Assembly (NCBI RefSeq): GCF_006402735.1 | Contig: NZ_CP017174.1 | Span: 2,235,001-2,299,000, forward strand | Origin: Myxococcus xanthus | GTDB lineage: Bacteria > Myxococcota > Myxococcia > Myxococcales > Myxococcaceae | Length of the DNA: 64,000 nucleotides | Direction: 5' to 3' | In this document: positions 3,659 through 41,261 of the stretch, one piece after another | Layout: each line of letters opens with the position of its first letter | How positions within the stretch are numbered: position 1 is the stretch's first letter | Program-made: the position numbers and the translations under genes | Notes under the pieces: model-generated | Databases searched by the model: none | Told to the model about the DNA's origin: nothing | Seen by the model: the letters and a program-made list of their open reading frames with translations, nothing else

Positions 3659-5746
3659 TCAGCTCCGGCGACGAATGGTGGGCTTGCGCGCGCGCACCGC
3701 GGCGTCCGGCACGGCCTGGGGCTCGTGGCCCGCGGCGCGCGCCATCAGGCAGATTTCCACCACCTTGGGGCCAAAGCGCTCCCAGCGGCTCTCCCCGGTG
3801 CCCTTCACCGAGAGGAATCCCTCCCGGTCCACCGGCAGCGCCGCGGACAGGCCCAGCAGCGTGGCGTCGTTGAAGATGATGAAGGGGGCGACGCCCAGGT
3901 CCTTCGACAGTTCCTTGCGCCAGCGCCGCAGCTCCGTGGAGGCCAGCTCGCTGTAGTTCGTCACCACCGGCGCCGCCGCGGAGCCCGTGCCACGCGAGCG
4001 CGACGCTGCCGGCCCGTGGGCCAGCAGTGTGGGCATCTTTTCCGGCGTGCACACGTCGCAGTTGCCACACGACGTGTTGGTGTCGCGCTGGCCGAAGTAG
4101 CGGAGGATGGCCGAGCGTCGGCACTTCTTGTCCCGGTCCGTATAGGCGTACTCGGTCATCCGCCGCAGCAGCGACAGGTTCTGCCGCTCCTGCTCCCGCA
4201 CGCGGCTCAGGTCGAGCCCCAGCTCGCGGAAGGGCACCCGCTCCAACGCGCGGATGGAGCGCCCGGCGAAGGGGCGCCGGACCTTGACTACGTGGGCCTT
4301 CTCCAACAGGCCCAGCGCGTGGCGGACCTCGTCCACCGACAGCCCGATGCGGCGCGCGAGGATGGGCAGCTCCGTGGTGACCTGCCGGCCCACGGGGAAC
4401 GTCTCCAGCAAGGACTTGAGCAGCCGCTGCGCGTCCGGCGAGTGCGGCTGCGCCGAGGTGGCCTTCTCCAGCAGGGTGATGCCGTGCTCGCCCTCGCCTC
4501 GGCCACCACGCTCCACCTTGCCCTCGCGTTCGAGGATGCGCAGCGCGGCGGAGACCTCGAACTCGCTGGCGTTCACCGTGCCCGCGAGCGCGTGCACGCC
4601 TCGCTCGAACTCCTCCACTGACTGGAGCACGTTCCACACGTCCCCGAAGATGGCCTCGGCCGGGTGGCTGCTCTGGATGAGCCGCTCCTGGGTGAAGACG
4701 TCCGAGTGGTTGAAGAGCAGCACCGCGCGCGCGGCCTGTCCGTCGCGGCCCGCGCGGCCAATCTCCTGGTAGTACGCCTCCACCGCCCGCGGGATGTTGG
4801 CGTGGCCGACAAAGCGGATGTCCGGCTTGTCGATGCCCATGCCGAAGGCGTTGGTGGCCACCGCCACGGCTTCCTTCGCGGACATGAAGGTGTCCTGGGC
4901 GCGGCGCCGGGCGTCATCGTCCATGCCCGCGTGGTACAGCACCGCCTTCACCCCGCGCCCATGCAGTTCGGAGAAGATGTCTTCTGCCGCGCGCCGCGTG
5001 GAGCAGTACACGATGCCGCTCCCGCCCGTGGACGCCAGCCGTGCGCAGGCCTCGTGCCGGTCCGCGTCGCCGCCCACCTCCTGCTTGCCCAGGAAGAGGT
5101 TGGGGCGGTCAAAGCCCATGGCGAACTCCTGCGGGTCCTTCATCAGCAGGACCCGCACGATGTCCGCGCGGACCTCCGGCGTGGCCGTGGCGGTGAGCGC
5201 CACCGTGCGCGGCGGACGCAGCCGCTTTCTTACCTGTCCGAGCAGCGCGTAGTCCGGCCTGAAGTCGTGCCCCCACTGGGAGATGCAGTGCGCCTCGTCC
5301 ACGGCGAGCAGGTCCACGCCCAGCGCGGACACCGTCTCCAGGAAGCTCTGGCTGCGGAAGCGCTCGGGCGCCACGTAGAGCAGCTTGTACTCACGCGCGC
5401 GCAGCTTGCGCATCCGCTCCGCGCGCTCCAGGTCGGACAGCGATGAGTTGATGAAGGTCGCCGGGATGCCCCGCGCGGTGAGCTGCTCCACCTGGTCCTT
5501 CATCAGGGCAATCAGCGGCGACACCACCAGCGTCAGCCCCGGCAGCAGCGTGGCGGGCAGCTGGTAACACAGGCTCTTGCCCGCGCCGGTGGGCATCACC
5601 ACCACCGTGTTGCGGCCGCTCAAGACGGAGGAGATGACCTGGTCCTGCCCCGGCCGGAACTGGGACAGGCCGAAGTGGCGGACCAGCCCCTGCTGTGCTT
5701 CCTCGAGGTAGGGCAGGTCCACCGGCATCGCGCGCATGTTCATCAT
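3659..5746 (-). CDS. recQ: ATP-dependent DNA helicase RecQ
   Basis: A superfamily 2 3'-5' helicase acting in recombination and fork repair. The 695 residues show Walker A (PTGAGKS, ~52-58), a DEAH box (VDEAHCISQWGHDFR, ~150), and helicase motifs IV-VI with the arginine-finger region GRAGRDGQ. A RecQ zinc site follows, with one Cys before RRSAILRYFG and then CGNCDVC, and a C-terminal HRDC-like domain lies around FIIFNDATLLGL. It is longer than E. coli RecQ (~609). The frame is open upstream to 5908, but similarity starts at LPYLEEAQ, so I chose the paired ATG at 5746; ATG 5737 is also possible. It lies downstream of radC and the DUF3006-like gene on the same strand, giving a DNA-repair flavoured group. 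Confidence 0.95.
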   Translation of the reverse strand: MMNMRAMPVDLPYLEEAQQGLVRHFGLSQFRPGQDQVISSVLSGRNTVVVMPTGAGKSLCYQLPATLLPGLTLVVSPLIALMKDQVEQLTARGIPATFINSSLSDLERAERMRKLRAREYKLLYVAPERFRSQSFLETVSALGVDLLAVDEAHCISQWGHDFRPDYALLGQVRKRLRPPRTVALTATATPEVRADIVRVLLMKDPQEFAMGFDRPNLFLGKQEVGGDADRHEACARLASTGGSGIVYCSTRRAAEDIFSELHGRGVKAVLYHAGMDDDARRRAQDTFMSAKEAVAVATNAFGMGIDKPDIRFVGHANIPRAVEAYYQEIGRAGRDGQAARAVLLFNHSDVFTQERLIQSSHPAEAIFGDVWNVLQSVEEFERGVHALAGTVNASEFEVSAALRILEREGKVERGGRGEGEHGITLLEKATSAQPHSPDAQRLLKSLLETFPVGRQVTTELPILARRIGLSVDEVRHALGLLEKAHVVKVRRPFAGRSIRALERVPFRELGLDLSRVREQERQNLSLLRRMTEYAYTDRDKKCRRSAILRYFGQRDTNTSCGNCDVCTPEKMPTLLAHGPAASRSRGTGSAAAPVVTNYSELASTELRRWRKELSKDLGVAPFIIFNDATLLGLSAALPVDREGFLSVKGTGESRWERFGPKVVEICLMARAAGHEPQAVPDAAVRARKPTIRRRS

Positions 5747-40171: not shown

Positions 40172-40678
40172 CTATGGAATCCCCAGCTCCTTGCGCAGCC
40201 GGCCCACGACCTTGAAGTACTCCGTCCGTGGGAAGGGCACGTTGAGGATGTGGAAGTCCTTCTTCGCCAGGCCCACGCAGCCGAAGCAGTAGTTGCAGTC
40301 CTGCAGGTTGCGGCACAGCACCAGGTACGCGCTGGTGGAGCAATTTTCGCTCTGGACGCAGTACGCGCAGGCGTTGCAGCTCTTGCAGTCCACGCAGTGC
40401 GAGCAGTTGTTGCACAGCTCGCACCGGGTGCAGTGCGTGCACGTGAAGCAGCTGTCGCAGTCCTTGCAGAACATGCAGTTGGCGCAGCGCTGACAGCCCT
40501 CGCACGCGTAGGAGCCGGGGTTGCCCGGGTCGGACGCGAAGCTCTTGGCCAGCTTCTGGAACTGATCCAGGAACTCCCGCTTGCCCAGGGTGGACACCAG
40601 CTCCCGCGCCGCCTTCTCCTGCGCGACCAGGTCCGCCTTATCGGGCCGCGTTCCTTTGTCCTTCACCACCTGGGACAC
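40172..40678 (-). CDS. Cys-rich protein with cysteine at every third residue
   Basis: A 168-residue protein with 22 cysteines. Residues 59-107 contain 17 Cys in perfect period 3 (59, 62, 65 ... 107), each separated by two non-Cys residues, then Cys 113, 122, 128, 131 and 134. The N-terminal 50 residues are a charged helical stretch, and a conserved-looking C-terminus follows (FHILNVPFPRTEYFKVVGRLRKELG). No signal peptide is seen, so it should be cytoplasmic. Homologues I have seen in databases carry misleading names (caib/baif). A GTG start at 40678 is used; GTG codons at 40669 or 40666 fit the AAGGAG spacing better. The gene is 7 bp downstream of a lipoprotein gene. Confidence 0.85.
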   Translation of the reverse strand: MSQVVKDKGTRPDKADLVAQEKAARELVSTLGKREFLDQFQKLAKSFASDPGNPGSYACEGCQRCANCMFCKDCDSCFTCTHCTRCELCNNCSHCVDCKSCNACAYCVQSENCSTSAYLVLCRNLQDCNYCFGCVGLAKKDFHILNVPFPRTEYFKVVGRLRKELGIP

Positions 40679-40685
40679 TCCTTCA

Positions 40686-41261
40686 TCAGTTCGGACCGGG
40701 CCTCAGGCGAGCCAGTCCCGCAAGGTCGATGCCGCGCGCCACCCGGCGCACCTCCACCGTACCCGGAAATCCCCGGCTGGTGACGGCAACCACGTAGCGC
40801 CCCCCCACAAGGAGGTTCGCTTCGGCCACGGACTCCTCCGCGTCGTACCGCACGAAGCCCACGGCGTCGTCCAGGTGGATGGGGGCGGACGGGTCACTGG
40901 CCGCCTTGCCCCGGGAGCGGTCGGCGGCCTCCTGGATGGCCTTGCCAATGCGCTCGCCCATGGTGGTGTCCACGATGCGCACCTTCACCTCACGTCCCTC
41001 ACCTCGGGTGTAGAGCCGCTCGGCCTCGGAGACGGACACCTCGCCGTACTTCCCGGTGGAGCCCTGGGTGTGCGCCACCGTGAAGCCGTCCAGCCGTTCT
41101 GGAAGGAAGGGCGCCAGTTGCTTGAAGTACACGCAGGGCGCGTTCTCCGCCGACACCTCGGGTGTCACCTCCGGGGACGAGCCGGACTCGCCGAGGCAGC
41201 CCGTGCCCAGGACGAATGCGAGAACAGCGCCAGAGCGCCTGGGGAAAAAAGAGTCGCGCAC
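40686..41261 (-). CDS. lipoprotein upstream of the Cys-rich gene
   Basis: A 191-residue lipoprotein. The signal reads GAVLAFVLGTGC (lipid Cys22 from the GTG at 41261), and the mature part is alpha-beta without an evident enzyme motif (LAPFLPERLDGFTVAHTQGSTGKYGEVSVSEAE; VGFVRYDAEESVAEANLLVGGRYVVAVTSRG). The GTG start has no strong ribosome site. It is divergent from the UvrD-type helicase (gap 34 bp) and lies 7 bp upstream of the Cys-rich gene, with which it probably forms an operon. Function unknown. Confidence 0.75.
   Translation of the reverse strand: MRDSFFPRRSGAVLAFVLGTGCLGESGSSPEVTPEVSAENAPCVYFKQLAPFLPERLDGFTVAHTQGSTGKYGEVSVSEAERLYTRGEGREVKVRIVDTTMGERIGKAIQEAADRSRGKAASDPSAPIHLDDAVGFVRYDAEESVAEANLLVGGRYVVAVTSRGFPGTVEVRRVARGIDLAGLARLRPGPN

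Follow-up and report, generated by a model that had tools for sequence, protein, structure and literature searches.

A possible thiol-cored beta-solenoid in Myxococcota: a conserved single-copy protein with a period-3 Cys register and a 12-residue outward repeat

Introduction

The beetle antifreeze protein TmAFP (1EZG) is a regular right-handed beta-helix composed of 12-residue coils, and in a model of its close homologue DhbAFP6, which was built on TmAFP, the residues follow the order out-in-out-out-in with C2, S5, C8, and A11 pointing inward and with an assumed bridge between C2 and C8, six residues apart (PMC8038014). Each third residue in a stretch of the 1EZG chain reads CCCACSCACSCACSC..., namely, 23 positions that are all C, S, or A, 13 of them being Cys. 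Closely spaced Cys residues are also a feature of heterocycloanthracin-type precursors; in the published precursor, 13 Cys are placed mostly two residues apart (PMC2674419).

Here, we have examined a gene in a 64 kb stretch of DNA (hereafter, the window) from Myxococcus xanthus, the genome of which is a single contig of 9.3 Mb. A preliminary description of this gene pointed to an unbroken series of Cys at every third residue and held that ferredoxins, metallothioneins, and zinc ribbons have no unbroken run of this length. A period-3 inward pattern as such is known from the 23 positions of TmAFP; in that protein, however, three period-3 Cys occur in a row near the start and never 17.

Results

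The Cys register and the architecture of the protein

The gene and the segments of its product, as delimited by the analysis described below, are the following:

40172..40678, minus strand: the whole gene including the stop codon, encoding 168 amino acids (list of open reading frames; the listed start is GTG)
40505..40678, minus strand: N-terminal segment, residues 1-58, composed of a variable part and then KREFLDQFQKL and NPGS (alignments)
40358..40504, minus strand: 17 successive period-3 Cys, residues 59-107 (translation)
40268..40504, minus strand: repeat domain, residues 59-137, with 27 putative inward positions in about six predicted 12-residue coils (gap-free in 52 homologues; lag-12 signal)
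40175..40267, minus strand: C-terminal segment, residues 138-168 (KKDFHILN..Y.R.EYF...L), strongly conserved (52-sequence alignment)

The 168-residue protein contains 22 Cys in total. As had been described, 17 of these succeed one another with a period of three in residues 59-107, and five more follow at 113, 122, 128, 131, and 134; shuffling the protein's own residues 100,000 times gave period-3 runs of Cys of at most 7. No second period-3 run of at least four Cys was found when the whole window was read in six frames. The register does not stop at residue 107, furthermore, but continues up to residue 137, positions 110, 116, 119, 125, and 137 being occupied by S or L, and the repeat is therefore better delimited as residues 59-137.

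Translation may in fact begin at codon 4 or 5 (GTG GTG; first base 40669 or 40666), because an AAGGA stretch immediately adjoins the listed GTG and because the frame of one homologue (L011) is without a start codon ahead of that point. The N terminus is hydrophilic and no signal peptide was seen in it by eye; the protein is probably cytoplasmic. In the N-terminal segment, for which a low-confidence AlphaFold2 model has helices, KREFLDQFQKL is probably a helix cap. The C-terminal segment, in which L145, N146, Y154, and F155 are invariant (52/52 homologues), is probably also a cap with a helix, and a helix at 151-164 appears in the low-confidence AlphaFold2 model.

Distribution and conservation in Myxococcota

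When genome contigs were scanned with the window protein, a procedure sensitive to close relatives only, 35 loci were obtained, and all except one were labelled Myxococcus, Corallococcus, Archangium, or close kin. In the same scan, the product of a contig that carries the label Comamonas sp. KCTC 72670 (L004) shared 96% identity with the Myxococcus protein of the window, and this assembly is probably mislabelled or mixed. A profile (A1) that combined the window protein with 27 of the 35 scan loci detected the gene in 127 out of 195 Myxococcota genomes, always as a single match per genome; the other 68, including 12 listed genomes of family f2, gave no match at E 0.001. Addition of 40 further regions, mostly divergent, led to an alignment of 52 proteins (A2), the identity of which to the window protein is 37-89%.

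Residues 53-155 are free of gaps in all 52 aligned sequences, and the seven pairs for which dN/dS was computed over residues 53-168 gave values of 0.07-0.34. The wide occurrence, the gap-free alignment, and the low dN/dS therefore indicate that the repeat is maintained by selection. At the 27 register positions (59, 62, ... 137), only C, S, L, V, A, M, T, or I is found in 1404 of 1404 cells, and none is charged; Cys occupies 1022 of these cells (73%), followed by Ser (14.0%) and Leu (11.0%). The number of register Cys per protein varies from 12 to 23 among the 52 homologues, with the longest unbroken run being 2-19. Cys is present in at least 48 of the 52 sequences at nine positions, namely, 65, 68, 77, 80, 86, 113, 128, 131, and 134, and Ser, Leu, Val, or Met substitutes for Cys at the remaining ones. 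The preliminary description had left the repeat to be judged by its homologues, and these keep the register without exception (52/52), though many single Cys are exchangeable. The constant trait is thus a small or aliphatic uncharged residue at every third position, not each Cys.

A 12-residue period and a conserved side

Periodicity was examined by subtracting the mean profile and comparing the outward columns by cosine, with shuffling of whole triplets (5000 times) as the control. At lag 12, the mean cosine of the outward columns was 0.271 versus 0.070 in the shuffles (sd 0.042), and no shuffle was as high (0/5000); lag 24 was reached by 5 and the weaker lag 36 by 213 of the 5000 shuffles, and no elevated similarity was seen at lags 3, 6, 9, 15, and 18. 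The period is evident in a ladder of aromatic residues and His: F, Y, H, or W occupies residues 70, 82, 94, 106, 118, and 130 in 309 of 312 cells versus 212 of 2392 other outward cells. In the window protein, these residues are F, H, H, Y, Y, and Y, and all six ladder positions are taken by members of its eight outward aromatics (hypergeometric probability 1.4e-6 for this phase, uncorrected). When periods 4-30 were compared for each sequence alone, period 12 in the same phase came out best in 50 of the 52 sequences, which are related and hence do not amount to 50 independent tests.

The outward residues also differ by their position in the 12-residue period (class). At the residue preceding each of the three inward columns outside the aromatic ladder (classes 1, 4, and 7), G, N, D, or S accounts for 164, 170, and 185 of 312 cells, respectively, as expected if these classes formed turns; in class 10, the corresponding count is 0 of 312. 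Class 0 is V, I, or T in 162 of 312 cells. The mean column entropy is 0.19 in class 10, 0.96 in class 9, and 1.64 in class 6 versus 2.0-2.7 in classes 0, 1, 3, 4, and 7, and charged residues fill 1, 5, and 0 of 312 cells in classes 10, 9, and 6 versus 59-202 in the other classes. One side of the repeat (classes 6, 9, and 10) is thus conserved and uncharged, and the opposite side is variable and charged.

Structure prediction, which the preliminary description had also envisaged, could be carried out with AlphaFold2 but returned models of low confidence: the mean pLDDT was 43.3 and pTM 0.37 for the full length with the A1 alignment (28 rows), and 41.2 and 0.32, respectively, for residues 53-168 with a third alignment (A3; 30 rows). 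Both alignments were shallow and made of close relatives, the divergent rows L057-L096 having been left out, and the outcome therefore speaks neither for nor against a 12-residue coil.

Gene neighbourhood

Upstream of the Cys gene, the following frame was noted:

40686..41261, minus strand: reading frame of about 190 amino acids with an uncertain start, ending 7 bases ahead of the Cys gene

Its product is a probable lipoprotein as judged by eye, and no Pfam match was obtained for the frame when it was tested with a longer start (41315). Frames resembling it are located upstream also in L064 and, more weakly, in L059. When the reading frames in the fetched stretches of 59 loci were compared by BLAST, relatives of a helicase frame of the window, which we take from its motif to be UvrD/PcrA-like, were found in 26 of the 58 other loci, those of the window's methyltransferase frame (PUA_3 and methyltransferase domains) in 23 of the 58, and those of the putative lipoprotein (L064 copy) in 17 loci. 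Among the 18 loci listed, the more distant ones have different neighbours, and the neighbourhood hence gave no functional inference.

Searches for related families

No match was found for the window protein in Pfam and NCBIfam at E up to 1 or for four divergent homologues in Pfam at E up to 0.1; the literature search found no paper on the Cys-repeat family among the matches listed. The family is real and conserved, and it has no model in these two libraries. A phage family without an assigned function, phrog_15341, matches the window protein at E 4.4e-9. We nonetheless rejected membership in this family, because five of five copies of the protein with shuffled outward residues match it too (E 3.1e-9 to 2.3e-6, one of them better than the original); the match therefore reflects shared Cys spacing and not descent. 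Proteins of the phrog_15341 type, i.e., those of Campylobacter phage CP220, Vibrio phage 1.238, and the IMG/VR contig L097, also have period-3 Cys runs, but the C-terminal 42 residues of the window protein have no relative better than E 1 in the phage collection; one match each was obtained for them in phages (E 1) and in plasmids (E 0.6). In viral contigs, none of 159 candidate stretches was confirmed with the A1 profile, and one of 81 was confirmed with the A2 profile, namely, a phage contig with an open reading frame having the repeat alone.

Several further Cys-repeat frames were noticed in mobile elements. The viral contig L097 has two adjoining open reading frames (4627-5178 and 5190-5642) of 183 and 150 amino acids with mostly NC/DC-type period-3 Cys repeats, together with terminase- and portal-like frames named by eye. 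Genes matching the Cys repeat occur in phages of Campylobacter (L098:1387-1758), Vibrio (L099:1378-1752), and Flavobacterium (L100:1445-1789), of which the Vibrio one is annotated as "insect antifreeze protein" and the Flavobacterium one is without a PHROG match. A Campylobacter fetus plasmid also matches the repeat (L101:1501-1707; E 2e-3), and the PLSDB table has no gene there. In the search for relatives outside Myxococcota, the DNA pattern for CFGC[VI]GL..NK gave no match. Similar Cys-rich proteins of the CFGCVGL type are presumably present in Patescibacteria, and "caib baif family protein" is presumably a label for such proteins.

Discussion

The striking Cys pattern of this family can be explained well in structural terms. 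A turn of four triplets, a core-type residue recurring every three positions, and three turns combined with one strand correspond to the coil of the beetle antifreeze proteins, and we propose, with a probability of roughly one half, that the protein is a 12-residue beta-solenoid of about six coils with a core composed mainly of Cys thiols and with an uncharged aromatic face as a docking surface. The coil geometry would be like that of TmAFP, with the core packed chiefly with Cys thiols. Each coil would provide four inward residues, with C (or S/L) recurring every three residues, and would contain three turns rich in G, N, D, and S as well as a single strand reading aromatic/His, an inward residue, and often V/T/I; examples of the strand would be F70-C71, H82-C83, H94-C95, Y106-C107, Y118-L119, and Y130-C131. 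The helix would be right-handed. The thiols would serve mainly for packing of the core, for which neither metal binding nor fixed disulfides would be required, and the side of classes 6, 9, and 10 would most likely be the surface on which a protein partner docks or the protein self-associates. Neither a neighbouring gene in the 59 loci compared nor a partner protein was found to support a docking role. The 12-residue period could also, perhaps in part, trace an old 12-residue duplication. A beta-helix was among the folds considered in the preliminary description and agrees with the 12-residue period; a linear ladder of Cys on one face, also considered there, does not, since an outward period of 12 means four triplets per turn and would distribute the inward residues over four columns.

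Thiols in a reduced cytoplasm are accessible to soft metals, and one or two Cys4 sites made of the most conserved Cys might bind Zn, Cu(I), or an Fe-S cluster while the remaining ladder is structural. The candidate quartets are C65/C68/C77/C80, which would stack in neighbouring coils, and C113/C128/C131/C134; these are complete in 47 and 46 of the 52 sequences, respectively, above the inward average of 73%, and CXXC zinc fingers account for three of the six weak PDB matches of the profile (E 0.049 to 0.9). By a hand estimate, however, the nine most conserved Cys do not cluster in space beyond chance, and metal-protein families (metallothionein, ferredoxin, or zinc ribbon) gave no matches in Pfam/NCBIfam at E up to 1, so that we regard such sites as unlikely, if worth bearing in mind. 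Metals or Fe-S clusters arranged in a row, as suggested in the preliminary description, are not supported as a general mechanism, given that Cys is kept in at least 48 of 52 sequences at only 9 of 27 positions and is replaced elsewhere by Leu, Val, Met, or Ser; replacement by Leu or Val makes a metal unlikely at most positions and leaves room for local sites. It is quite improbable that the reduced thiol core holds a column of Cu(I)/Zn ions or a cluster with stacked CxxC pairs as ligands, which, if true, would make the solenoid a store or conduit for metal different from the known metallothioneins and ferredoxins. The same thiols might alternatively form i,i+6 bridges across the coils under oxidation, as in the beetle proteins, and thereby brace the solenoid or act as a redox switch. 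The six-apart C2-C8 bridge in the DhbAFP6 model (PMC8038014) is a precedent, and the likeness of the inward columns, calculated with no shuffle control, was 0.408 at lag 6 versus 0.128, 0.077, and 0.268 at lags 3, 9, and 12. Fixed i,i+6 bridges would nonetheless predict joint loss of the partners, but loss of Cys at i is uncoupled from that at i+6 (weighted mean phi -0.037, with an effective number of 17.5, versus 0.172, 0.233, and 0.173 at lags 3, 9, and 12); also, the count of register Cys is odd in 26 of the 52 sequences and no signal peptide was seen by eye, and we consider this disulfide chemistry distinctly unlikely.

Two explanations would dispense with the proposed solenoid. Low-complexity drift with no ordered structure would be in line with the low-confidence AlphaFold2 models but is hardly credible for a gene of 127 out of 195 genomes that is aligned without gaps, shows dN/dS of 0.07-0.34, and has one side conserved. 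The protein might instead be the precursor of a ribosomally made heterocycle-bearing peptide with Cys-Xaa-Xaa repeats as in heterocycloanthracin, given the similar spacing of Cys in the published precursor (PMC2674419) and the presence of two YcaO genes in the M. xanthus genome. These genes are, however, about 485 kb and 4 Mb distant, and a YcaO match is absent in 30 of the 127 gene-bearing genomes, some of which are incomplete. The identity as a bacteriocin precursor was rejected on this ground, i.e., because YcaO is neither nearby nor in every gene-bearing genome. Furthermore, the repeat does not change in length among the 52 sequences, a conserved segment follows it, and NCBIfam gave no match at E up to 1. 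According to PMC2674419, heterocycloanthracin-type precursors are short, have a leader, vary by indels, and are always accompanied by maturation genes, none of which fits the window protein, and this reading retains almost no weight.

If the thiol-cored solenoid is correct, much of one bacterial phylum would have a single-copy protein with a core of stacked thiols, and a family to which no function is assigned could be given a testable fold together with a probable surface for binding. To our knowledge, the 12-residue coil geometry is otherwise limited to secreted, disulfide-bonded insect antifreeze proteins; such a coil would then be able to dispense with fixed disulfides.

In comparison with TmAFP, significant similarity was not found: 1EZG is the second of six PDB matches of the A2 profile, with a composition-biased E of 0.093, and the top match, the TET1 CXXC zinc finger (E 0.049), is likewise not significant. 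The T-C-T ice-binding motif of TmAFP is absent in the window protein and is replaced by the aromatic/His column; namely, the residue before one inward column is F, Y, H, or W in 309 of 312 cells, and that before the other three is mostly G/N/D/S or charged. The window protein differs from TmAFP also in that Cys fills most of its inward positions, in that loss of Cys is not coupled between i and i+6, and in that extra segments are present at both termini; TmAFP has a signal peptide (PMC8038014), whereas none was seen by eye in the window protein. Common to the two proteins are the 12-residue repeat and the core-type residue at each third position, and we propose by analogy that the protein of Myxococcota may have the same architecture as TmAFP, with a thiol core, reached through convergence or through descent too old to see.
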